A stretch of 64,000 bases of DNA from a virus: positions 26,545-90,544 of IMG/VR virus record IMGVR_UViG_3300029319_009270; one strand, given 5' to 3'. The notes under the pieces are model-generated. The model was not told the DNA's origin. It searched no databases and saw only the letters and a list, made by a program, of their open reading frames with translations. The translations under genes were made by a program, and so were the position numbers. Every line of letters begins with the position of its first letter. Within the stretch, counting starts at the first letter, position 1. Positions 12,184 through 54,647 of the stretch are shown here, piece by piece.

Positions 12184-12903
12184 TTAATAACCATCATCTT
12201 GCGAAATTATTTCATCATAAAGGTCGTATAATCTGTCGGGAATATCAATTTCACTATAATATTTTCTAATGATATCTTCAGCAGCTTTTTGATCAACAAT
12301 AACTAAATCTGCATACATTGTCATAGGTCCGGGAACATTCTCATACATTGCAACTACAATTCCGTCTTTATTAACAAAAGCGTCATCAGATTCAATATAG
12401 TTTAAATAACCAGAGTCACTATCCGCTATATCTTCTAACACGTAAACTGTGTTATGTGCCAAAAGAGTATCAAGAATAGCTTCATCAGAAACATTAGCAG
12501 AAGGCGGATCTCGGTCTGATTCGTGTGGAGTCATAGCATCATAACTGGCTTGTGCTCTACTAAAAGCGGCATTTCGCCTACTATGATACATTTCTTTAAT
12601 TAGTTTTCTTAACTGTGTTCTTGTGATTTTCATAAGATCGCTAGGTGTTCGTCTTATGCGTGGACGAGGTCTATTGGCTCTTTGTTTGACATCACGATCT
12701 ACCCGATCTCGCCAAGCATCATCAGGGCTAACGTATTCATAATCCGGAGGAGCTAATTCAGGATCGCCCAGCAAACCTTCGTACCCGCCTGGAGCACTTA
12801 TTTCCTCCTCGCCAAACTCATAAGGAAGATCATGATTAGTGTATATGTCTTTAGGCATCTCTTTCAAGATTATCTTTCTAAGCAACTTCCTATTAAGCTT
12901 CAT
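12184..12903 (-). CDS. Double-tagged protein: two cargo-like units in one chain
   Basis: 239 residues. The N-terminus MKLNRKLLRKIILKEM (1-16) and an internal copy MKITRTQLRKLIKEM (91-105) are the same type of basic helix ending in [I/L]-K-E-M. Between them is an acidic/Pro-rich linker with EYVSPDDAWRDRVDRDVKQR; after the second copy a folded C-terminal domain follows (TVYVLEDIADSDSGYLNYI, ADLVIVDQKAAEDIIRKYY). The internal ATG at 12633 has no Shine-Dalgarno, so it is probably read through. It looks like a fusion of two tagged proteins. Function unknown; see findings. Confidence 0.65.
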   Translation of the reverse strand: MKLNRKLLRKIILKEMPKDIYTNHDLPYEFGEEEISAPGGYEGLLGDPELAPPDYEYVSPDDAWRDRVDRDVKQRANRPRPRIRRTPSDLMKITRTQLRKLIKEMYHSRRNAAFSRAQASYDAMTPHESDRDPPSANVSDEAILDTLLAHNTVYVLEDIADSDSGYLNYIESDDAFVNKDGIVVAMYENVPGPMTMYADLVIVDQKAAEDIIRKYYSEIDIPDRLYDLYDEIISQDDGY

Positions 12904-15001: not shown

Positions 15002-15011
15002 ATAAGTATTA
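15002..15011 (-). promoter_or_regulatory. TAATACTTAT motif, copy 1
   Basis: This 10-mer on the minus strand recurs at 34417-34426 and 45285-45294, each time between genes and upstream of a start codon. It may contain a -10-like TAATACT. The low complexity of the region makes this tentative. Confidence 0.3.
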
Positions 15012-15434
15012 CGAATCAATCGTTCTTACTATAATTCCAGAGCTTTCTAGTATATCTATTCCCTTACTGTTAGGATATCTTTCTAAATATATGACTTCTT
15101 TAATTCCTGCATTAATAATTGCTTTGGCGCAAACATCACAAGGAGATAATGTCAAGTACATTTTTTTGTCTTTTGACGTATTGTAGTCACACTTAATTAA
15201 TGCATTGATTTCAGCGTGTATAAAACCACTCATACCTACCTGATTTGAATCCCTTGTATTTGGACCGCCTTTTTGATCTCCATTATATCCAACAGCAAAA
15301 ACCTGAGTGTTGTCTTCTGACACAATAACACAGCCGACTTTGTGTTTTGGGTCGACTGATCTACAAGCTATCATTCTAGCAAATTGGGACCAAATATGGT
15401 CCCAACTAGGTCTTCCACTTCTGATTGCGTACAT
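15009..15434 (-). CDS. dCMP deaminase
   Basis: Zinc enzyme that deaminates dCMP to dUMP, feeding dTMP synthesis. 141 residues. Zinc and catalytic residues are visible: H73 and E75 in FIHAEINAL, and C99/C102 in SPCDVCAK. The flanking GYNGDQKG and NAGIKEVIYLE segments fit the ComEB/dCMP deaminase family better than guanine or cytosine deaminases. It lies 2 nt from the DHH gene and near thymidine kinase. Together with ThyX and dUTPase-like genes it forms a C-to-T route. Confidence 0.93.
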   Translation of the reverse strand: MYAIRSGRPSWDHIWSQFARMIACRSVDPKHKVGCVIVSEDNTQVFAVGYNGDQKGGPNTRDSNQVGMSGFIHAEINALIKCDYNTSKDKKMYLTLSPCDVCAKAIINAGIKEVIYLERYPNSKGIDILESSGIIVRTIDS

Positions 15435-23129: not shown

Positions 23130-24125
23130 TTAAATACTAGTCGGTGAGTTTGAAAATTTTATTTTTGTAATTGTTGGACACGACTCAGTTATTCTATCAG
23201 TAATATAAGTCGTCATTTCTGTCAAAGAATCAAATACTTTATGTTCATTATGATGCAATTTAAATAATTTAGCTGATTCGATGACATCTGTTTTTGATAA
23301 AACAATATGCGTTGTCCCAGTAAAATTAATTGCTTTTATCAGCTTGTTGAGATTGAGCCAGTTAACCTTTCTTCTTCTACCCGTTGTAACACCAAACTCA
23401 TGACCAAGATCTGCAATTTTCAGTAATTCAGGATCATTAAGTAAACTTTCAGGAAAGTCCGGATCAACTCCTGACCTAGTATCATAAACTTTCGCAGCTC
23501 CCCATATATTCCTTATCATCTGAATTGGAAATCCTAAGGAGCATGCTCCGTGTGGTAAGGTTGTACTAGAAGTAACATAAGGATAATTACCAAAATCTAC
23601 ATCCAGCCATATTCCTTGCGCACCTTCACAAAGAACTTTTCCGGAAAGATTCTCATCCCACATCATCCAGTAGGGTATAACGTCTTTAGCAAGAACCCCC
23701 TTGCGAGCCATTTTATCAGCGTAGCAAGGGGCTATTCCCTTTGATGTGGTTCCAAGTTTTTTTGCTAACTTTTCCGCATCTTCATCAATGTGAAGTCTGC
23801 TTACAATATGCGCTCTGGGTGAAACCTTAACTTTTGATATATCAAAACCGTTTTTCTCCAAATATCTAATTTCCGCCATAAGTGAATTCTCATGAACAAC
23901 GCAACCTGGCCCTATGACTGATGTTACACCATGAAAAACACCACTTGGTACTAAATGGGTTTTGTATTTTTTACCATCGACAAAAACAGTGTGTCCTGCA
24001 TTGTTACCACCAGCCCAACGACAAACAAAATCATATTCACCACTACCGGCTAATTCTGATGTAATTTTTCCTTTTGCCTCATCGCCCCAAGCTAATCCGC
24101 AAACAATATCTGCGTATTCAATCAT
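23130..24125 (-). CDS. purA: Adenylosuccinate synthetase (short PurA type)
   Basis: Joins IMP and aspartate with GTP to give adenylosuccinate, the precursor of AMP. 331 residues, nearer the short archaeal PurA and phage PurZ size than the ~430 of E. coli. GLAWGDEAKGK (10-20) keeps the catalytic Asp (D15), and GGNNAGHT keeps the catalytic His (H45); GTTSKGIAP, GVTTGRRRKVNW and SKTDVIE complete the active site. PurZ enzymes that make aminoadenine have lost that Asp, so ordinary PurA chemistry is the better reading. GMP reductase at 28833-29918 could supply its IMP. Confidence 0.93.
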   Translation of the reverse strand: MIEYADIVCGLAWGDEAKGKITSELAGSGEYDFVCRWAGGNNAGHTVFVDGKKYKTHLVPSGVFHGVTSVIGPGCVVHENSLMAEIRYLEKNGFDISKVKVSPRAHIVSRLHIDEDAEKLAKKLGTTSKGIAPCYADKMARKGVLAKDVIPYWMMWDENLSGKVLCEGAQGIWLDVDFGNYPYVTSSTTLPHGACSLGFPIQMIRNIWGAAKVYDTRSGVDPDFPESLLNDPELLKIADLGHEFGVTTGRRRKVNWLNLNKLIKAINFTGTTHIVLSKTDVIESAKLFKLHHNEHKVFDSLTEMTTYITDRITESCPTITKIKFSNSPTSI

Positions 24126-28832: not shown

Positions 28833-29918
28833 CTAAACAAATACAGAGTTAAACTGTTGTGTGCATCTAACGAATGTAGCACATTTGCTCAACTGTTTTA
28901 AGGTGGGCGCTCCTACGTAAGTACAAGTAGATCTAACCCCACCTAAAATATCTTTGATTGTATTTTTGACTTTTCCTTTATAGGGTATTTCTACTGTCCG
29001 ACCTTCAGAAGATCGGTATTCTGCCACGCCGCCTGAATGTTTTTGCATTGCAGTATCAGAGCTCATACCGTAAAACTGTATGTAGTGTTTTTCTTCATAA
29101 ACTGGACCTAGCTTATCACCATAAATAGAAAGCTCTATCTCACCTGTTTTAAAACACTTAGTTATAATTTCACCACCCCCTTCGTCATGACCGGCCAACA
29201 TTCCGCCTAACATTACAAAGTCAGCACCGGCTGCAAATGCTTTGGCCACGTCTCCCGGGCAAGTGCATCCACCATCTGCGATGATATGACCGCCTAAACC
29301 GTGCGCTGCATCAGCACATTCAATAACAGCTGAAAGCTGTGGGTATCCAACGCCAGTTTGAATTCTTGTAGTGCATACAGAACCCGGGCCAATACCAACC
29401 TTAACAACATCTGCTCCTGCGAGAATAAGCTCTTGTGTCATGTCTGCAGTGACAACATTACCAGCAATGATGTTGCAATGAGGAAAATCACTTCTGACTA
29501 GTTTAACAAAATCAGTAAAGTGTTCTGAGTATCCATTCGCTATATCAATACAAATCCAACTTAGATTACACGTTGAAATTATTTCTTTTGCTTTCTTGTA
29601 CTCTTCTACGTTTGTGCCCACACTAATAGCAAGATGATCTGTGTCTATTTGTCCGAACTGACCATACCAGTCCTCAGGTGTATTTTGCTTTGTTATGCAG
29701 GTAAACATCTCACATAACGCTAGCTCGTGTGCTATATTAAACGTGCCTACCCCGTCCATGTTCGCAGCCATAATTGGGATCCCAGTCCAGAATTTGCCGC
29801 TGTTTCTAAACGTATACTTTCGACGCAAGTCGACTTCTTTCCTAGATCGGAGGATACTGCGTTTTGGACGAATTAGTACATCTTTATAATCTAATTTTAT
29901 TTCTTGTTCAATTCTCAC
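28833..29918 (-). CDS. guaC: GMP reductase
   Basis: NADPH-dependent reductive deamination of GMP to IMP. 361 residues against 347 in E. coli, and very similar throughout: [12 protein letters not shown] near the start, the catalytic loop [14 protein letters not shown] with C182, [35 protein letters not shown], and the YGMSSDTAM...[15 protein letters not shown] closing segment. No CBS domains, and the flap fits GMP reductase rather than IMP dehydrogenase. An insert near 250-275 adds length. Paired with PurA it converts guanine to adenine nucleotides. Confidence 0.96.
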
Positions 29919-29929
29919 AATTTTTCTCC

Positions 29930-30268
29930 TTAATTTTTTTCAACAATTGCTTTCAATGGAAAACCAGACTGTCTAGCATAATCAATGACTTGAGCAGATT
30001 TTGTATCAGCAATCTCTTTGCTGAAAGGGCCGCCTGCTATACCCTTCCCTTTTTCATGAACAGAGCTAGCTATATTCCACGCTGTATCAACATCTTTATA
30101 AAAAAAAGTAATTAACACTATAACAACAAATTGAAAATGTGTATAGTCATCATTTAACAAGACAACGTTGTATTTACTAGGTTTTACTACTTTATTCTTT
30201 TCTTTTTGTCTATCAAGTAGATCTACACCGCTATCACAATCTTTGCTTTCTTTCTTTTTTTGAGTCAT
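29930..30268 (-). CDS. clpS: ClpS adaptor (N-degron recognition)
   Basis: Delivers proteins with destabilising N-termini to ClpAP. 112 residues: a 30-residue disordered N-terminal extension then the ClpS core. Key residues remain: N39-D40 in [12 protein letters not shown] and H71 in [13 protein letters not shown], which hold the substrate alpha-amino group and pocket; [25 protein letters not shown] completes the fold. Phage-encoded ClpS together with a ClpP homologue (53228-53830) is striking. It could redirect host proteolysis; the host ClpA would be needed. Not demonstrated. Confidence 0.93.
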
Positions 30269-33419: not shown

Positions 33420-34385
33420 TTAATATCTTCCATGATATCTTCGTCGATACAAACTACCTCGACTAAGACCTTCATTAATATCTGTATCGGGTCCTACCAT
33501 ACCACTGGGTGTCTCCGGTTGTCCAGAGGGTGGTACATCTCGAGATGTAACAGACTCAGGGTTTGACTTGAATTCAATATCATCATCTTTTGTACTAGCA
33601 ACTTTTGCAGAACCTGACGCGGATGGAATCAATTTACTAGCATAAGTTATAGCTCCAGCGTCTAACAACATCTGAAGAACCCCGTCGTGAAGCATAGAAG
33701 CAGCCGTAGTTGTACCGCATTCTGAACTGAAGACGCGCAGATATCCTCTCTGTTGACTGACAAAACTACCTTCGCGCTGGGACGCTCGAACTCTTTCGCC
33801 TATCGAAACCAATGCATTTTTATCACCATCTAAAGTGGCAATTGCTGATGCTGCTAAAACCTCTTTATATTCACCTGCAGCTTCAGGATAAACATCACAA
33901 TAAAGTTCTGAATCCTCGATAAATTCTAAGATTGCATTTATTGGCGGTTCAGGTTCAGGTTCTTTAACTTGTGGTTTGAAAGTTTTTCCAACGGACTTAC
34001 TTACGGGTCCTGAAATTATTCTATAACGATCACCCACTTTTGCATAAGTGTACGGGTCTCCTCTTCCACTGATACCATAATCAGATCCCGCCTTTCCGAA
34101 TTCAGGTTTAACGCCTATCTCAGGTGCCCAATATAAATCCCAGTCTAACCAAACGAAATAATCGCCTTTTGGAACAGGGATATTCATTCTTTTAAGAATT
34201 TCAGCAGCTTCGGAAGCGGGAACTTTTACTGCTTTTGGATTGTCTGCTGCTTTCGCTTTGTCTAAGATGTCTCCTTCTCGAGGATCTAAGTTTTTACCCT
34301 TAGGATCAGCGTCAGGTATAGCATGTTCTTCTTCATTTAATAGTGATTCTATCAATAAATTCAAATTTCTTTTAGTGATTCTCAT
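33420..34385 (-). CDS. Tagged virion-type protein
   Basis: 321 residues. Tag MRITKRNLNLLIESLLNEEE carries LNE-E. Then a Pro/Asp-rich linker with KGKNLDPREGDILDK, a folded middle (DYFVWLDWDLYWAPE, DRYRIISGPVSKSVG), a helical segment (KEVLAASAIATLDGDKNALVSIGERVR) and a Ser/Pro-rich tail with RRRYHGRY. No known domain. Lies between two strong terminators, so it is a single-gene unit with its own TAATACTTAT motif 32 nt upstream. Confidence 0.62.
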   Translation of the reverse strand: MRITKRNLNLLIESLLNEEEHAIPDADPKGKNLDPREGDILDKAKAADNPKAVKVPASEAAEILKRMNIPVPKGDYFVWLDWDLYWAPEIGVKPEFGKAGSDYGISGRGDPYTYAKVGDRYRIISGPVSKSVGKTFKPQVKEPEPEPPINAILEFIEDSELYCDVYPEAAGEYKEVLAASAIATLDGDKNALVSIGERVRASQREGSFVSQQRGYLRVFSSECGTTTAASMLHDGVLQMLLDAGAITYASKLIPSASGSAKVASTKDDDIEFKSNPESVTSRDVPPSGQPETPSGMVGPDTDINEGLSRGSLYRRRYHGRY

Positions 34386-34485: not shown

Positions 34486-34935
34486 TTATTCTATTTCACC
34501 TTCATATCTTAATTCAAGCAAACGTTCAGATGCAGTACAATCTTGCAAGTAAGCATCTAATTGTTCCAACGAAGTGCATACTGCAATTCCCGATGCTGCT
34601 AACATGAGATTAAATTGTGCACCGGGTGGTAAACCATCGCAAAAATAAACAATTGGCTTTTCTAAACAATTCATATAACCTGCTTCAAAAATCGACCCCA
34701 TATCTTTGTTTCTTGTATTGCATAGCATCCAGTCACATTCATGAAGATGCCTAATATTTCCTGAAAATATTTGATCTTGTATAGACTCATTAGCATCATT
34801 ATCACAAAGATTTTCATCCTTCGGTGAAAAATAAGAAATGCCGTGTTTTTCAAAAACTGATTTAATATTTTCTACTTCTTCCAACCACTCAGGTGAAAAC
34901 CACCCGCTTGCTAAATAAACTTTTCCTAAACTCAT
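34486..34935 (-). CDS. Nucleoside 2-deoxyribosyltransferase-like protein
   Basis: 149 residues. KVYLASGWFSPE at the start, SPKDENL in the middle and CDWMLCNTRNKDMGSIFEAGYMNCLEKPIVYF with the probable catalytic Glu (in GSIFEAGY) match the NDT fold, and NLMLAASG follows as in the family. Members exchange or hydrolyse the base of (deoxy)nucleosides or nucleotides. Overlaps the ThyX gene by 1 nt, so it probably cooperates in pyrimidine handling. Specific substrate unknown. Confidence 0.78.
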   Translation of the reverse strand: MSLGKVYLASGWFSPEWLEEVENIKSVFEKHGISYFSPKDENLCDNDANESIQDQIFSGNIRHLHECDWMLCNTRNKDMGSIFEAGYMNCLEKPIVYFCDGLPPGAQFNLMLAASGIAVCTSLEQLDAYLQDCTASERLLELRYEGEIE

Positions 34936-35924
34936 TATTCTCTCCCCATAAATTGATTGTATTGATTTGTTAATTGATTAATCTCTTCTAATGTTTCTTC
35001 CCAAAGCTGTGTAAAAATTGTTGGTGTACCCGGGACATGATTTTTACCATTAATATCCTCACGACGAGACTGATAAATTGTATCATTGGGATGATATTCA
35101 AACTTATCGTTCTTTGGTTCTGGCCAATATAGGTTTGTACCTCGTGATGTTTCGCCACCTTTACCATCAGGTACGCGAAATGTTTTAATATAGTGCATAT
35201 CTGGTTTATTAAAATTAATACGCGCGGTTGCTTCAGGCAGAACTTTGATTACTTCTCTTGCCATGTACGCGGCAAGTAAATTATCAGCTGCCGGTTGAAT
35301 TTGCATGTCTTGACGTTGAGCGATAAAACCTAACAGATCTTTTAAGTTAAGACGCATTAGATAAAATGAAGTCATGCACTTTGGTAAAATCATTCTTGCA
35401 TCCATCATTGATACAATCTTGGAATCTGTCATGTCAGCATATAATTCCTTAGATTCGCGAACTAACTTTTTCCAGCGCCTATCAAACTCGGGTGTGTTTT
35501 GAACAGCTTCAGGAATTACTGCGGGATCATCCCTTAAGTCACGATCACCAGTACACTGTGCGGCAAAACTACCAGCACGATGTCGTATGATGTGTGTAAC
35601 CTCTTGAAATGATAAGCCACTTAACTTAAATGTAAACCCTAAACATTCCATAGGTGTTGGAAGTGCACGAAAACAAAGAACATCCTCGAGATTTGCAGAC
35701 AGTTCTTTTAAACTAGCAGTAGCTGGATTTGTCTCATCGTGATGATCAGCCCATGTTGCTTTTACATATTGCCAAGCAACATTAAGCGCTTGAGATCTAG
35801 TTGGATGATCAACTAGTTCAACTTTCAAATGTGCAAGATTGTTATAAAATGCTGTGTTGGGTTCTTGACCAAACTTAAGTTCCATTGGCAGATCAACAGG
35901 TTTCAAATCATTATTCTGTGGCAT
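34935..35924 (-). CDS. thyX: Flavin-dependent thymidylate synthase ThyX
   Basis: Converts dUMP to dTMP using FAD, NADPH and methylenetetrahydrofolate. 329 residues. The ThyX motif RHRxxSxxxxSxR appears as RHRAGSFAAQCTGDR (114-128), with Cys in place of the second Ser. The C-terminal active-site helix region ARMILPKCMTSFYLMRLNLKDLLGFIAQR is well matched, though the usual AQxEIR is changed to MQIQPAA. So it is a divergent but probably active ThyX. AAGGAGG precedes the ATG; overlaps the NDT-like gene by 1 nt. Confidence 0.87.
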   Translation of the reverse strand: MPQNNDLKPVDLPMELKFGQEPNTAFYNNLAHLKVELVDHPTRSQALNVAWQYVKATWADHHDETNPATASLKELSANLEDVLCFRALPTPMECLGFTFKLSGLSFQEVTHIIRHRAGSFAAQCTGDRDLRDDPAVIPEAVQNTPEFDRRWKKLVRESKELYADMTDSKIVSMMDARMILPKCMTSFYLMRLNLKDLLGFIAQRQDMQIQPAADNLLAAYMAREVIKVLPEATARINFNKPDMHYIKTFRVPDGKGGETSRGTNLYWPEPKNDKFEYHPNDTIYQSRREDINGKNHVPGTPTIFTQLWEETLEEINQLTNQYNQFMGRE

Positions 35925-35988: not shown

Positions 35989-36909
35989 TTATTTTATTAT
36001 TAACTTATTAGGATTCGTATAGACAAATGTATTATCACGACCATCAACTTCTAAATTATAATTTTTTCTAGGATAATAACAAACTATTCCGTGCTTTGCA
36101 TAATCCACAATATGTTTGGGAGCATCGTCAATTGCAGCAACTATTTTATCTTTATCATAGTACTTTGACCTAGCACACCATCGAAATTTTTCTGTGCTAA
36201 AGTCAACTGCATCAAACGGAATACTGTTATTTTTTAGCCAATAAAACGTATCATAAAAACATTTTAAATTTTCTTTAGGTCTAGCTGTCAATAGCTGGAT
36301 CCAGTAGCCTTGCTTTTTTAAATTATTTAGCATCTCAATCGATCCATCAACGACATCTAAATTCCTAAACCCACCCTTATTAACAAATTCGTAAAATACA
36401 GCTTCAGGATTTAAATCTAATTTATTCAATGCAGTTATAAAATAGTATTCTTTACTATAGACATCAATTTCTAAATTGTAATTTACACCTAGCCAATCTG
36501 CAAAACCTTGTCTAAATTCAGTCAAAACATCATCCATATCAACAATAACGACAGGTTGAGACCCATCCCAACTATCTTGTGTCTTGTGAAGAAAATTTAA
36601 ATATGAATCTTTATCATAAAAAGCTTCAATAAAATTTTCACTAGATATTTGATTAATATTAAGGATAGCTAAGATATATCGAAATATATCCACAGATTCA
36701 TAGAGCATTTTTGTTTTGTCTACAGAATCTGTTTGTGCATGATGATCTTTAAAATCAACAGATTGCATTAGCTCACTAACTTCTGAATGTAAGCAAAGTG
36801 ATAAAGTTTTTGTAATATCTACAATTTCTCTATCACTTAAGTTTTTTTCGCTTAGATTATATAAGCTAGAATTGAATTTTGCTTGTAAATTGAACAGGTT
36901 TTTCAGCAT
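35989..36909 (-). CDS. Fusion of an all-alpha NTP pyrophosphatase (MazG/dUTPase-2 type) and a HAD 5'-nucleotidase
   Basis: 306 residues from the ATG at 36909 (GAGGT upstream; a longer start at 36945 is possible). Residues 30-110: LHSEVSELMQ and YESVDIFRYILAIL give the ExxE...ExxD metal motif of MazG/dUTPase-2 proteins. Residues 125-300: VVIVDMDDVLTEF, LLTARPKEN and AIDDAPKHIVDYAKHG are HAD motifs I, II and IV of 5'(3')-deoxyribonucleotidases. One chain could thus turn an NTP to NMP and then to nucleoside. The target nucleotide is unknown. Overlaps the previous gene by 44 nt. Confidence 0.82.
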   Translation of the reverse strand: MLKNLFNLQAKFNSSLYNLSEKNLSDREIVDITKTLSLCLHSEVSELMQSVDFKDHHAQTDSVDKTKMLYESVDIFRYILAILNINQISSENFIEAFYDKDSYLNFLHKTQDSWDGSQPVVIVDMDDVLTEFRQGFADWLGVNYNLEIDVYSKEYYFITALNKLDLNPEAVFYEFVNKGGFRNLDVVDGSIEMLNNLKKQGYWIQLLTARPKENLKCFYDTFYWLKNNSIPFDAVDFSTEKFRWCARSKYYDKDKIVAAIDDAPKHIVDYAKHGIVCYYPRKNYNLEVDGRDNTFVYTNPNKLIIK

Positions 36910-37132
36910 TTTTGACCTCACTAATTTTGCCTCCTGCAATTGCAAAGGCGTCTGTTAAACAATCAGGCTCTATTTTTTCAAAAAATATTGAGCTATGATC
37001 TGATAAGCGAATAATTCCTGATAAAAAATCTTTATTTATATTTGTAATAATACACTGCAATTCATCCTTATTACAAAAACTAAAAGAATTAATTATTTTA
37101 TCATTACTAGCAGTCAAAATTAGTTTGTGCAT
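36866..37132 (-). CDS. Small hypothetical protein
   Basis: 88 residues; the ATG at 37132 overlaps the preceding stop (TGATG). Strand-rich with scattered Cys (FSFCNKDELQCII, EPDCLTDAFAIAGGKISEV). No family recognised. Its 3' end overlaps the MazG-HAD gene in another frame by 44 nt, unusual but supported by good Shine-Dalgarno sites for both. Confidence 0.5.
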   Translation of the reverse strand: MHKLILTASNDKIINSFSFCNKDELQCIITNINKDFLSGIIRLSDHSSIFFEKIEPDCLTDAFAIAGGKISEVKNAEKPVQFTSKIQF

Positions 37133-37611
37133 CAATAACCATTTTTAAGTCTATCATTAATTATTATGTCTTTATTCAAATATGCCTTAAAAAATTCATC
37201 TGAGTCTATGTTTAGATGTATCATTAACGAAAAGAAATAGTTAAAAGCATCAACCATCTCTTCTAAAAATTCTTCCTTATTAAATGTTCCACCAACATCA
37301 GTTTGACGATGAGACTTCCAATTTTTCAAGTGTTGGAGAGCTTCAAACATCTCCTCGACGCCGTGCAATGCTAAGTCTCTTAGATATTTTTGACCATCTT
37401 TTGATGCAGGATTAATTTCTTTTGGTTGCGCTTTCGGAACTGTTTTACTTAAATTAGTCATAAAAGCTTTTCTAAGTAAGAAAATCTGTTCTAAACGATC
37501 ACAATTAAATTCATTATTTGTCTTCTCTTCTTCCTTTAACAGACTCAAGCATTGATTCAATTTCTCTTTCAATTCTTTCTTTGCTTTCTTTCGTAAGTTT
37601 AAGGTTTCCAT
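37132..37611 (-). CDS. dUTPase-2 / MazG-like pyrophosphatase
   Basis: 160 residues from the ATG at 37611, which has GGAG seven bases ahead; this start overlaps the upstream gene by 98 nt. HGVEEMFEALQHLKNWKSHRQ and KEEFLEEMVDAFNYFFSLMIHL carry the E-E-x-x-E and E-x-x-D metal motifs of dimeric dUTPases, and the DAFNYFF segment fits PF08761-type proteins. Likely hydrolyses dUTP (or dCTP) to dUMP, feeding ThyX. Substrate not proven. Confidence 0.8.
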   Translation of the reverse strand: METLNLRKKAKKELKEKLNQCLSLLKEEEKTNNEFNCDRLEQIFLLRKAFMTNLSKTVPKAQPKEINPASKDGQKYLRDLALHGVEEMFEALQHLKNWKSHRQTDVGGTFNKEEFLEEMVDAFNYFFSLMIHLNIDSDEFFKAYLNKDIIINDRLKNGY

Positions 37612-37723
37612 CGCCATTCTCCAGTTCAAAAGTTCTTAAGTGATCAACAATATCAGTCCCGGATAAAATAGCTATCTGTAAGGTTCTAGCCACATCTGAG
37701 ATTAATTCATCTGAAAATTTCAT
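37514..37723 (-). CDS. Small helical hypothetical protein
   Basis: 69 residues: SDELISDVARTLQIAILSGTDIVDHLRTF then a charged Lys/Glu helix (KESKERIEREIESMLESVKGRREDK). I recall similar short proteins in marine phages but cannot name a family. GGAG before the ATG (37723) and 9 nt gap from the glycosylase gene. The second half overlaps the dUTPase-like gene in another frame. Confidence 0.55.
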   Translation of the reverse strand: MKFSDELISDVARTLQIAILSGTDIVDHLRTFELENGDGNLKLTKESKERIEREIESMLESVKGRREDK

Positions 37724-37732
37724 TTTATTCTC

Positions 37733-38545
37733 CTATTTTTGAATACTTGGTACCCAATGTGTTGTCCTCTTGTCTTTAGTCTTTTCTCTAACAACAAGAT
37801 TACCATTTGGATCTGTTTTTTGATTATACACAGCAAAACGCCTACTGTACAAACCTTTTTCACCATTTGACTGCCTATATGTTGCTATTGTAGCTCCACC
37901 CATTTGATACGAAAGTCTAGTAATCCACCGACACGCTTCAGAAAGAGACTCAAATTCTTTGTCAGATACATCCTTACTTAACCTGTGGGGAGATATCTGG
38001 CACGCATAAAGTATTTCTGCTTTTAAATAGTTACCAACCCCAGATATCACAGATTGATTCATTAGGTTTTCAGCTACAGTTTTATTAGGCCTCTTTAAAA
38101 ACCTTTCTCTAATTGTATTCTGATCAACTTCTGAATTTAAAACATCAGGTCCGAGCGACTTAAGTTTCTTCTCAAGTTCATGGAAGCATCGCACATATTT
38201 AAGCGTTCCAAAGTTTCTCACGTCATTAAAGTGAACGCTCTGACCTTTATGGTTAGTTAGCGTTACGCGCGTGTGCTTGTTCTTTTTGCGCTGCCACATC
38301 CCGCTCATACCTAATGTTGACCACAAAGACGAACCGGTATTAAATTTAAAATAGATAAACTTACCTTTGCAGCAAACTTCTTCTACAATCAACGGGAATA
38401 ACTCATTATCTAATAAGTCATAACCTTTAAACGGACCGTGTTTGACATAACGCCCTGAATTAATCTGGACATCTAATATTCTGGTTCCTTGCAGAATGCT
38501 ATTTAAATAGTCAACATTTTTTCTTACTTCTGGACCTTCAGGCAT
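37733..38545 (-). CDS. Fpg/Nei family DNA glycosylase, zinc-less finger type
   Basis: Removes oxidised bases with AP-lyase action. 270 residues. Mature N-terminus PEGPEVRKN with catalytic P2/E3; H2TH segment LMNQSVISGVGNYLKAEIL; a C-terminal hairpin where the usual four zinc cysteines are absent (YNQKTDPNGN, then KDKRTTHWVPSIQ), with the Arg of the finger kept. Such zinc-less fingers occur in NEIL1-like and some viral (mimivirus) Nei proteins. Overlaps the next glycosylase-like gene by 8 nt in a three-gene repair cluster. Confidence 0.9.
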   Translation of the reverse strand: MPEGPEVRKNVDYLNSILQGTRILDVQINSGRYVKHGPFKGYDLLDNELFPLIVEEVCCKGKFIYFKFNTGSSLWSTLGMSGMWQRKKNKHTRVTLTNHKGQSVHFNDVRNFGTLKYVRCFHELEKKLKSLGPDVLNSEVDQNTIRERFLKRPNKTVAENLMNQSVISGVGNYLKAEILYACQISPHRLSKDVSDKEFESLSEACRWITRLSYQMGGATIATYRQSNGEKGLYSRRFAVYNQKTDPNGNLVVREKTKDKRTTHWVPSIQK

Positions 38546-39110
38546 TTACACCCCTCCTAAACCAATCTGGCATTGTTGCACGCGGTTCCCATTTGGCAAA
38601 CCGGACTTTGTCTTGAATATAATAATTTCTATAGCTTTTTACCGGGTCTCCCGGGACTTTGTAATCTTCTTTCATGCATACAGCAAAAGGGGATAGACCT
38701 TTGTTGTTCATGAAGCGTGGCTTATTCTTACCGAGCCAGTCTAATACTGCTTCAGACTTATGTGTCCTGTGGTATCTCTGTGTGTATTCTTTGCACAGAG
38801 CGACTCCTAATTCCCAGTGCCATTCGTAATTTGCTAGTGACTCGTTTGTCCACAAGGTGCAAGGGTGTCTTATATGAGAAAGTTTCCACGGTGGCTGCTC
38901 GAGTGGGTGCGTGTTATCAAAAAGCCACTGCTGAATATCTCTGACTCTTTTAAAATCCGTTATTTCGCCATCATAATAATTCTTAAGCAAGTGCAACCAA
39001 TGCGCTGTACAGAGCATTTGACCTGATTCTAAAATCATTTTAACGACGTGTTTATTACAGTGATATTTTGCTGCTATTACAGGATTCTTATCAAGAACAA
39101 ATATATTCAT
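38538..39110 (-). CDS. Putative pyrimidine-dimer glycosylase-like protein
   Basis: 190 residues. Starts MNIFVLDKNPVIAAKYHCNKHVVKMILESGQML, a His-rich helical opening that I associate with the Pyr_excise/endonuclease V-related proteins of marine phages. Further conserved-looking parts: HPLEQPPWKLSHIRHPCTLW, NYEWHWELGVALCKEY and PVKSYRNYYIQDKVRFAKW. Placement between an Fpg/Nei and an HhH-GPD glycosylase supports a repair role. The catalytic residue is not settled and an unrelated nuclease is possible. Confidence 0.6.
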   Translation of the reverse strand: MNIFVLDKNPVIAAKYHCNKHVVKMILESGQMLCTAHWLHLLKNYYDGEITDFKRVRDIQQWLFDNTHPLEQPPWKLSHIRHPCTLWTNESLANYEWHWELGVALCKEYTQRYHRTHKSEAVLDWLGKNKPRFMNNKGLSPFAVCMKEDYKVPGDPVKSYRNYYIQDKVRFAKWEPRATMPDWFRRGVNA

Positions 39111-39525
39111 TACTTCTCAACCAATTGACATAGTTTACAAGAGCGCCATCTTTTGGCTGTACAGTTTTCCACTCACCTTTGCAAAATATTCGATAAGCAT
39201 CAGAACCGTACTTTCCGATACCATATAAATTGGTAGCATCACCTTGCCAGTCTTTGCTTAGATAATCGCAAGACATTTTTTTAAGAGCTTTAGCACGCTT
39301 CTTCGACAGACCTAGAGGCTGTATAAGCTCTACCAGATCATCATAATCAGCGTTTGCAAGGTCTTCAGGTGTTGGCCATCGCTTTAAAACTTCCCAAAAA
39401 TAAGGCTCGGCAGTTAAGCGTTTTGTTAAGTTACAAAAAATACAACAAACAAAAATCTTCCAAGGATCTTGCCAGAGTTTCTCTTGCAGTAGTGTATAGG
39501 GTGATTTAGGTGCTTTCCAATTCAT
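39091..39525 (-). CDS. HhH-GPD DNA glycosylase resembling MBD4
   Basis: 144 residues. Closely follows the glycosylase domain of eukaryotic MBD4 (G:T and G:U mismatch repair): PKSPYTLLQEKLWQDPWKIF, then PTPEDLANADYDDLVELIQPLGL, the hairpin LYGIGKYGSDAYRIFC, and GEWKTVQPKD with the catalytic Asp at D126. No methyl-binding domain and no Fe-S cluster cysteines. It would remove T or U opposite G arising from cytosine or 5-methylcytosine deamination. Overlaps the preceding gene of the cluster by 20 nt. Confidence 0.88.
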   Translation of the reverse strand: MNWKAPKSPYTLLQEKLWQDPWKIFVCCIFCNLTKRLTAEPYFWEVLKRWPTPEDLANADYDDLVELIQPLGLSKKRAKALKKMSCDYLSKDWQGDATNLYGIGKYGSDAYRIFCKGEWKTVQPKDGALVNYVNWLRSNEYICS

Positions 39526-39543
39526 AGTAATTATATTATATTA

Positions 39544-40308
39544 CTATTTCTTATTTTTTACACGCTTTTTCATAATATTTGTAGGGCGCTCACCAAATTT
39601 TCTTTTTTTCGGTTTTGATCTAATTACTTCTTTAATTATATTTTCATCTGAAATTTCTATCCCTTGTTGTCTTAAATAGTTAACAACAAATAATTCTCTT
39701 TCTTCCTGGGTTAATTTTGACCACAAGTATCTTGTATCTTTTTTAATAGTTGCAATTGTATTAGACATTATTTTTTTAGAAGCATTCAGGATATTAATTT
39801 GTTCTTCAATTACATTATCAGGCTTAACAAAAACCTTAAAACAGAAGACCATTAAATCATCAAGGTATGATTGATTATAAGCTTCAGTGATGTCCTTGTA
39901 AATATTAGTCAATTCTTCTTTATAATCAGAATCTGCATGTTTTACCAAATCAGGATGACATCTTTTTACGGATTTTCTATATAGATCTTTAGCCCATTTT
40001 TTATTTACTGTTTTTTTATTTGATGCACTCTCAGAGTGAACTAGATCATCAACATCAAACTGGTCAGAAAAATTTTCATTCTGAACTTTACTTAACTCTT
40101 TTTTTTTAGATGTTGTTGTTAGAAGACCGTGCATTCCTGATATTTTAATAAACTTTTCCTCATCGGGGATTGATATTCTTTTAAATAGTTCAGAAAGATA
40201 CCAACGCATGTCATGATCAGATTTTTTAATATCTGATTCCATTTCATTTATTATTTCTTTTAAGCTTATAAGCTCTGTGACTAAAGTTACGTATTTCGAT
40301 TCTAGCAT
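39544..40308 (-). CDS. J-domain protein (DnaJ-like co-chaperone)
   Basis: 254 residues. A segment at about 104-150 (KKWAKDLYRKSVKRCHPDLVKHAD, then YKDITEAYNQSYLDDLMVFC) has the helix II basic patch, the HPD triad (118-120) and a helix III of a J-domain. The N-terminal 90 residues form a helical region, and the C-terminus is Lys/Arg-rich and likely disordered. No G/F or zinc region. It probably recruits host DnaK to a phage substrate; which one is unknown. Confidence 0.72.
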   Translation of the reverse strand: MLESKYVTLVTELISLKEIINEMESDIKKSDHDMRWYLSELFKRISIPDEEKFIKISGMHGLLTTTSKKKELSKVQNENFSDQFDVDDLVHSESASNKKTVNKKWAKDLYRKSVKRCHPDLVKHADSDYKEELTNIYKDITEAYNQSYLDDLMVFCFKVFVKPDNVIEEQINILNASKKIMSNTIATIKKDTRYLWSKLTQEERELFVVNYLRQQGIEISDENIIKEVIRSKPKKRKFGERPTNIMKKRVKNKK

Positions 40309-53882: not shown

Positions 53883-54647
53883 CTAACGCCAAGTTAAATC
53901 AGCTGTTTCTTCATCATTACCCTCACTTTCACCCTCTATGGGTGAAATAACAAAATTAGCATCAGGTGTAAAATTATCAGGCTTCTTTAGTGTACTTAAC
54001 AAAGATACTGGATCTGTTTTAGGGTCGGAGTCAGGTTTAGCTAATTGATTTACATAATCATCAATTGCTTCTGCATTAGGACTTGGATCATATGTCGCTA
54101 TATCTTTTAAATTATTCATAATGTCGTCTTGACTAGTTTTAATAACTCTTTCAAAGCTTTGGTATGGTAAAAGTCTAGGGTCTGGATTGTACGGTAAACC
54201 ATCAGGGTCAACATAATACTCTTCACCTGTTTGAGGATCCTTGCTTAACGCAGCATATGAGTAATCATCCCTATAATCTTTTTTAGTAAAAATTAATTTA
54301 CTTCGAGTTGTTCTATCAACTAGCTGATGTGTAGATTTTTCTCCTTCAGGTGCATCTGCCCCTAGACCTCTGGCAACTAAATTGTCGTGAATAAAATTTA
54401 ATGTATCAGCACGTGCAGCACGAAATGCTGCATCATTTATATATTGCTGGTCTTTACCTTTGAAATGACTAGACATTTTACTTAGATTTTTTTTAAAACT
54501 AGATGTCATAAATTTCTCTAACATATCTTTACTAAGACTATTAGGCGCTTTTTCAAAGGAAGGTTGTAAACTACCTCCAAAATTTTTATAAGTCTGAACG
54601 TATACTTCTGACAACAATCTTCTTATTTGCTTTCTTGTGATTTTCAT
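53883..54647 (-). CDS. Tagged virion-type protein
   Basis: 254 residues. Begins MKITRKQIRRLLSEV, the clearest tag in the window, ending LSE-V. Body: KAPNSLSKDMLEKFMTSSF, a helical stretch (YINDAAFRAARADTLNFIHDNLVARG), strand YRDDYSYAALS, and a Pro/Asp-rich C-terminus with DPKTDPVSLL. Its first 16 codons share ATGAAAATCACAAGAA with the internal tag at 12633. No known domain. AAGGAG lies within an inverted repeat just upstream. Confidence 0.65.
   Translation of the reverse strand: MKITRKQIRRLLSEVYVQTYKNFGGSLQPSFEKAPNSLSKDMLEKFMTSSFKKNLSKMSSHFKGKDQQYINDAAFRAARADTLNFIHDNLVARGLGADAPEGEKSTHQLVDRTTRSKLIFTKKDYRDDYSYAALSKDPQTGEEYYVDPDGLPYNPDPRLLPYQSFERVIKTSQDDIMNNLKDIATYDPSPNAEAIDDYVNQLAKPDSDPKTDPVSLLSTLKKPDNFTPDANFVISPIEGESEGNDEETADLTWR

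Follow-up and report, generated by a model that had tools for sequence, protein, structure and literature searches.

What would a marine tailed phage gain from an enzyme of the MBD4 kind, encoded in one run of overlapping genes with a second DNA glycosylase, and on which DNA would the two act? Wherever a genome employs 5-methylcytosine (5mC), that base is a decay hot spot, to which MBD4 is among the vertebrate answers; phages with wholesale 5mC or 5-hydroxymethylcytosine (5hmC) meet the deamination problem at every C:G pair, and no repair enzyme for such substituted phage genomes was described in the literature searched. The locus examined here lies in a window of 64,000 nucleotides that spans positions 26545-90544 of a viral contig 90,544 bases long, from a tailed phage that encodes a gp32-like SSB, ribonucleotide reductase and a DnaB-type helicase; the minus strand carries nearly all window genes, including every gene of the cluster described below, and relatives with the same cluster reach up to 235 kb. 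Three of these genes, for an MBD4-like protein of 144 aa (39091..39525), a middle protein of 190 aa (38538..39110) and an Fpg/Nei protein of 270 aa (37733..38545), overlap by 20 nt and 8 nt, respectively, exactly where an earlier sequence-only reading had placed them. That reading took all three for DNA-glycosylase-type genes that are made together. The assignment held for the MBD4-like and Fpg/Nei proteins and was not supported for the middle one, which has no Pfam match and no confident fold match; the overlapping genes belong to a conserved cluster, and an MBD4-Nei fusion is present in a related contig. Immediately upstream of the MBD4-like gene is a weakly DnaJ-like protein (39544-40308), with a counterpart of ~244 aa upstream in related loci.

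Focusing first on the 144-aa protein, the search against PDB sequences matched mammalian MBD4 catalytic domains at E=1.2e-39, with MutY and Nth matches at 1e-6 or worse, more than 30 orders of magnitude weaker; the Pfam family is HhH-GPD (PF00730, E=1.2e-9), and identity to mouse MBD4 across the domain is 47%. The alignment to the mammalian glycosylase domain (PDB 4ew4, 4dk9, 1ngn) is full-length, and the two have in common the GIGKYG hairpin and residues Q449, Y540, D560 and L508 in MBD4 numbering. As the sequence-only reading had noted, GIGKYGSDAYRIFC and D126 are both present in the window protein; Q14, Y106 and D126 correspond to MBD4 Q449, Y540 and D560, and these three are invariant in the window protein and in all 63 of its non-redundant viral relatives, so that no loss of the catalytic Asp was seen among them. 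The minor-groove wedge of MBD4, formed by Arg468 and Leu508 (PMC5406665), is retained at L508 only: throughout group 1, the window protein (L33) included, Arg468 is replaced by Leu, and in nearly all other viral sequences by Leu or Gln. MBD4 K562 is Ala in the window protein, at a position that varies across the 63 viral sequences. Judging from these two replacements, mismatch specificity could differ from that of MBD4, and because the R468 wedge is not kept we file the protein as MBD4-type and do not call it an orthologue of MBD4 whose specificity is proven. Unlike mammalian MBD4, it is phage-encoded and has genes for an AP lyase and for nucleotide enzymes as neighbors; it consists of the glycosylase domain alone, the methyl-CpG-binding domain being absent. 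Pairs of MBD4-like genes gave dN/dS values of 0.06-0.22, and the genes are thus under long-term purifying selection. We conclude that the window protein is almost certainly an MBD4-type glycosylase domain, with predicted excision of T or U opposite G.

Maximum-likelihood trees set the MBD4-like proteins apart from Nth and MutY (support 98/94), placing the window protein with MBD4 and outside the ordinary bacterial enzymes, and grouped mouse MBD4 with group 1 phage and Bosavirus proteins (support 96/98). By sequence as well as by tree, the protein stands nearer to MBD4 than to Nth, MutY or AlkA. We do not claim that eukaryotic MBD4 is nested inside the phage sequences, as a viral-only clade was not rejected by the AU test (p=0.13) despite the 96/98 support. 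With a profile built from 11 sequences, at least 590 IMG/VR contigs were found to carry an MBD4-like gene, and the same approach returned 3 loci in 84,980 prokaryote genomes; this last figure is approximate, since the prokaryote scan used short patterns, one of them blind to the mammalian KYGNDSYRIF form, and divergent cellular copies may be missed. Among genomes sampled from the phylum of an Actinomarina MAG, 1 of 396 matched, this being the MAG itself and hence the positive control; among those from the phylum of a Nitrospirae MAG, 0 of 396 had an MBD4-like match, in a sample that contained no positive control. These searches suggest that the MBD4-type family is largely viral, with few members in the cellular genomes covered. 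The gene in the Candidatus Actinomarina MAG (L031:5986-6375) is of the S-TIM54 type, with 59% identity, in an apparently chromosomal setting. Cultured phages with the gene include Xanthomonas phages DoCa6 and YB23, Stenotrophomonas phage AXL1, Janthinobacterium phage Donnerlittchen and cyanophage S-TIM54, in which it is annotated as hypothetical, ENDO3c or endonuclease III.

The Fpg/Nei partner is a predicted glycosylase/AP lyase with PF01149 and PF06831 (H2TH) above cut-off and an MPEGPE N-terminus supplying Pro2 and Glu3. Its last 60 residues contain no Cys, so the finger is zincless, and here too the sequence-only reading proved right. The best PDB match is mimivirus Nei1 (3a45, E=1.3e-45), which shares the zincless C-terminus; that protein is a giant-virus enzyme, however, with no link to an MBD4-type protein in the evidence examined. 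In one contig (L046) the MBD4-like and Nei proteins are fused in a single open frame of 414 aa. Of the group-1 loci, 18 have 5 kb or more of downstream sequence; in these, the region downstream of the MBD4-like gene holds Nei in 12, MazG in 14, a divergent ThyX (ThyX-d) in 14 and a deoxyribosyltransferase in 13. Contigs such as L041 and L048 depart from this order, with ThyX-d lying elsewhere on the contig. Since the group-1 contigs come from related phages, this shared synteny does not amount to many independent events. Taken together, it is very probable that the MBD4-type enzyme works with Nei in base excision repair, with the activities of both predicted from homology.

The genes that follow suggest where modified cytosine might come from. 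In the window lineage, MBD4-like and Nei usually head a cluster of MazG, MazG-HAD, ThyX-d and nucleoside deoxyribosyltransferase. In the window this comprises a small conserved ORF of 69 aa (37514..37723), with a like-sized ORF at the equivalent place in seven related loci (L002-L008); a MazG/dUTPase_2-like nucleotide pyrophosphohydrolase (37132..37629; phrog_12184 E=9e-13, PF08761 weak and below cut-off) whose annotated TTG start is uncertain; a dUTPase_2/MazG-like domain fused to a HAD 5'-deoxynucleotidase of the NT5C type (35989..36945; PF08761 E=1.9e-6, PF06941 E=1.3e-7); ThyX-d (34935..35924; PF02511 E=1.4e-18), kept in relatives and a candidate dCMP (hydroxy)methylase; and a nucleoside 2-deoxyribosyltransferase/DNPH1-superfamily protein (34486..34935; PF05014 E=3.7e-16, PDB 6evs E=1e-6), which comes after ThyX-d in nearly all related loci. 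A dCMP-deaminase-like enzyme elsewhere in the window, also on the minus strand (15009..15434; PF00383 E=3.7e-22), possibly belongs to the same nucleotide pathway. Several ThyX-d loci are without an MBD4-like gene.

ThyX-d scores 43 bits against the ThyX equivalog model (TIGR02170), whose cut-off is 87.9, and its structure model (whole-model pLDDT 70) matches ThyX/PolB by Foldseek at E~1e-7. It has the RHR motif, the R174 position and the fold in common with Thermotoga maritima TM0449 ThyX, and differs from it in S88C (Cys124 of ThyX-d), R90G, Y91D and a C-terminal extension of about 90 residues; the Cys is invariant in ThyX-d proteins. ThyX-d and canonical ThyX occur together in three large contigs, the window contig among them (G000, G007 and G033), and in six further loci the two genes lie within about 3 kb of each other. 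Because a canonical ThyX coexists, ThyX-d is unlikely to be there for dTMP alone, and its role probably goes beyond dTMP synthesis. In the ThyX mechanism, Arg174 deprotonates N3 of dUMP, and Ser88 and Tyr91 assist methylene transfer (PMC8316439). Cytosine has no N3 proton, so a ThyX that modifies dCMP would need a different activation; we infer that the Cys of ThyX-d could provide it by attacking C6, the way cytosine C5-methyltransferases do. We looked for more conventional sources of the modification, and neither a C5-methyltransferase (PF00145) nor a ThyA-type synthase was found in the window contig or its close relatives. This result weighs against a modified-cytosine genome, since cytosine modification in the window phage would then depend on ThyX-d, whose action on dCMP is a prediction. 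The one cultured phage found with a full-length ThyX-d relative is Geobacillus phage GR1 (47%). Its relative lies near a deoxyribosyltransferase and a gene annotated as a glycosyltransferase, a label without Pfam confirmation (L166:4552-8969), and GR1 is a candidate for glycosylated hydroxymethyl-pyrimidine DNA.

Phages of other lineages also bear on the substrate. In Bosaviruses and their relative Donnerlittchen, a small ORF, the MBD4-like gene and MazG are followed by thymidylate synthase, dCMP deaminase and DHFR, and in AXL1, DoCa6, YB23 and Donnerlittchen the MBD4-like gene adjoins MazG and a thymidylate synthase with Asp177, the residue that switches specificity to dCMP and is a signature of cytosine-modified contigs (PMC8670742). 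In Xp12, 5mC replaces all C, and among the phages discussed here modified virion cytosine is known for Xp12 only (PMC7653180). The Xp12 MBD4-like gene is known to us through the AXL1 paper, which, where it treats the ENDO3c domain, reports this gene otherwise only from Xp12, doubts the active site and makes no mention of MBD4, and which describes AXL1 DNA as resistant to almost every enzyme whose site contains G/C (PMC9206674). The AXL1 gp65 and Xp12 ENDO3c proteins (Bosavirus, Mesyanzhinovviridae) are of the same family as the window protein, have the catalytic Asp and lie beside MazG and a thymidylate-synthase-family enzyme; they differ in being 34-37% identical to the window protein, in having a ThyA-type Asp177 partner instead of ThyX-d and in lacking a Nei neighbor. 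Two unrelated lineages, the Bosavirus type and the window type, therefore place an MBD4-type gene beside a MazG-family protein and a non-standard synthase, of ThyA fold in one and ThyX fold in the other. Homology between the Bosavirus and window MazG proteins was undetectable in pairwise comparison.

The association has limits in both directions. Asp177 was found in the synthases of all phages sampled from the Bosavirus/Bradleyvirinae group, with or without an MBD4-like gene, so the idea that the gene's presence predicts Asp177 was dropped and the gene is dispensable for cytosine modification; relatives of both cassettes, Bosavirus-type and window-type, exist without it, and phage DLP4 naturally lacks it. 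S-TIM54 carries an MBD4-like protein (UYE97365) with the conserved Tyr and Asp in a genome that also encodes an Asp177 synthase and a C5-MTase homologue, and differs in that the protein falls in the separate group 2 branch and its gene lies about 30 kb from the synthase. By motif alignment, synthases are of the Asp177 type in S-TIM54 and three group-2 contigs and have Asn in one, and the majority of long group-2 contigs that carry an MBD4-like gene have no Asp177 synthase, ThyX-d or C5-MTase. In S-TIM54 the C5-cytosine-methyltransferase homologue is near the Asp177 synthase, and an ordinary ThyX is also encoded (L016:1327-2544, L017:1477-2319); this phage is a candidate for cytosine-modified DNA.

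On this evidence, we give slightly better than an even chance to the view that the MBD4-type/Nei pair carries out base-excision repair where deamination has left T, U or 5-hydroxymethyluracil (5hmU) opposite G, the genome so repaired being most likely one with 5-substituted cytosine; for that kind of target genome in itself the chances look roughly even. In the proposed scheme, ThyX-d would produce 5-substituted dCMP (5-methyl or 5-hydroxymethyl), and deamination of 5mC or 5hmC in the phage DNA would give G:T or G:hmU. The MBD4-type enzyme would then flip out and hydrolyze T or U, and probably 5-hydroxymethyl-U, opposite G by means of D126, leaving an abasic site that the neighboring or fused Nei would cut by beta,delta-elimination; Nei would also be able to remove oxidized bases. 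Host or phage polymerase and ligase would complete the repair, and MazG, MazG-HAD and the deoxyribosyltransferase/DNPH1-type protein may guard the pool against deaminated or unmodified pyrimidine nucleotides. Of the two uses suggested by the sequence-only reading, one was to protect a modified-cytosine genome; the Xp12/AXL1 lineage and the adjoining ThyX-d lend this indirect support, with modification of the window phage's own DNA still a prediction.

A simpler account dispenses with the modified base altogether, and we regard it as possible though less than evenly probable: the MBD4-type protein would be a U/T mismatch glycosylase that deals with ordinary deamination of cytosine and with misincorporated dU, in concert with Nei and the pool-cleaning MazG/dUTPase proteins, and ThyX-d would be otherwise employed. 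It fits the acceptance by MBD4 of G:U as well as G:T as substrates (PMC5406665). The UDG superfamily (PF03167) is absent from all 16 records searched, including the window contig, leaving a role that an MBD4-type enzyme could fill, and the large group-2 family is mostly without cytosine-modifying genes. However, bacterial hosts normally have Ung (UDG-superfamily matches occurred in 13 of 14 control genomes), and generic repair leaves unexplained the recurrence with Asp177 synthases, the case of Xp12 and the presence of ThyX-d beside canonical ThyX. It seems very unlikely that the glycosylase serves offence or editing, by attacking host or competitor DNA or by removing T or hmU in the upkeep of a hypermodified-thymine genome. 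Thymidylate-synthase homologues do serve the 5hmU chemistry of some phages (PMC11946847), and ThyX-d could act on dUMP; yet MBD4 targets mismatches opposite G and not paired bases, the long-term purifying selection and the AP-lyase fusion fit repair, and no hmU-kinase-like neighbor was noticed in the clusters.

The other suggested use, a three-glycosylase kit for sunlit surface water that deals with damage from UV light, oxidation and deamination, also seems very unlikely. Two of the three genes are glycosylases by homology, and marine phages commonly carry relatives of the middle gene, a few GenBank records labeling them 'pyrimidine dimer DNA glycosylase', as the sequence-only reading had supposed for the window protein. 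Against this, Pfam gave no family for the middle gene at E<=1, PF03013 included, the PDB sequence search gave no match, and the protein matches phrog_624, 'DNA binding protein' (E=1.3e-52). Comparison by hhalign with T4 endonuclease V (DenV; query identical to PDB 2end) gave a probability of 0.9% from an alignment just 6 sequences deep, and the AF2 model (pLDDT 83) had no confident PDB fold by Foldseek/VIA, with weak helical-bundle matches alone. The protein starts Met-Asn and is without the N-terminal Thr2 amine nucleophile of the T4 endonuclease V type; Met preceding Asn normally stays uncleaved. We have accordingly set aside the pyrimidine-dimer assignment and with it the UV branch of the kit. 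Most related clusters that retain MBD4-like and Nei omit the middle gene, and the slot between the two is exchangeable, holding phrog_624 in the window and ClpS in L002 and being empty in L003-L008.

Returning to deamination repair in a modified-cytosine genome, we offer a more specific version for the window lineage, tentatively and as something we would still doubt. Here a flavin-dependent ThyX-fold enzyme, in which Cys replaces Ser88 and attacks C6, would make 5-methyl- or 5-hydroxymethyl-dCMP and so open a second path to modified cytosine in the genome, independent of ThyA; the MBD4-type and Nei module would answer deamination of that base, and the nearest relatives of eukaryotic MBD4 in the prokaryote world would be phage enzymes that meet the same chemical challenge. 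If an enzyme of ThyX fold does modify dCMP, this would be new chemistry. The MBD4-type kind of enzyme is already known; the literature searched gave no account of its viral family, the Nei fusion or the association with a ThyX-type cluster. As the MBD4-type family is widespread in viruses, including 5mC phages of the Xp12 group, the repair question is directly testable, and small natural mismatch glycosylases, one of them fused to an AP lyase, are potential reagents.

Several further genes in the window deserve mention. The phage encodes a ClpS adaptor (29930-30268; PF02617 E=6e-24), a ClpS-like gene being the one found between MBD4-like and Nei in L002. PurA-like (23130-24125) and IMPDH/GMP-reductase-like (28833-29918) proteins indicate that purine metabolism may also be altered in this phage. 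Three window ORFs (33420-34385, 53883-54647 and 12184-12633) and 8 ORFs upstream in the contig, 11 in total, have a common N-terminal peptide like MKITRRQLRxLIxE, which suggests a common sorting or capsid-targeting propeptide. Finally, a phage-encoded GroEL-like chaperonin was recognized by reading the sequence at 1352-2941.
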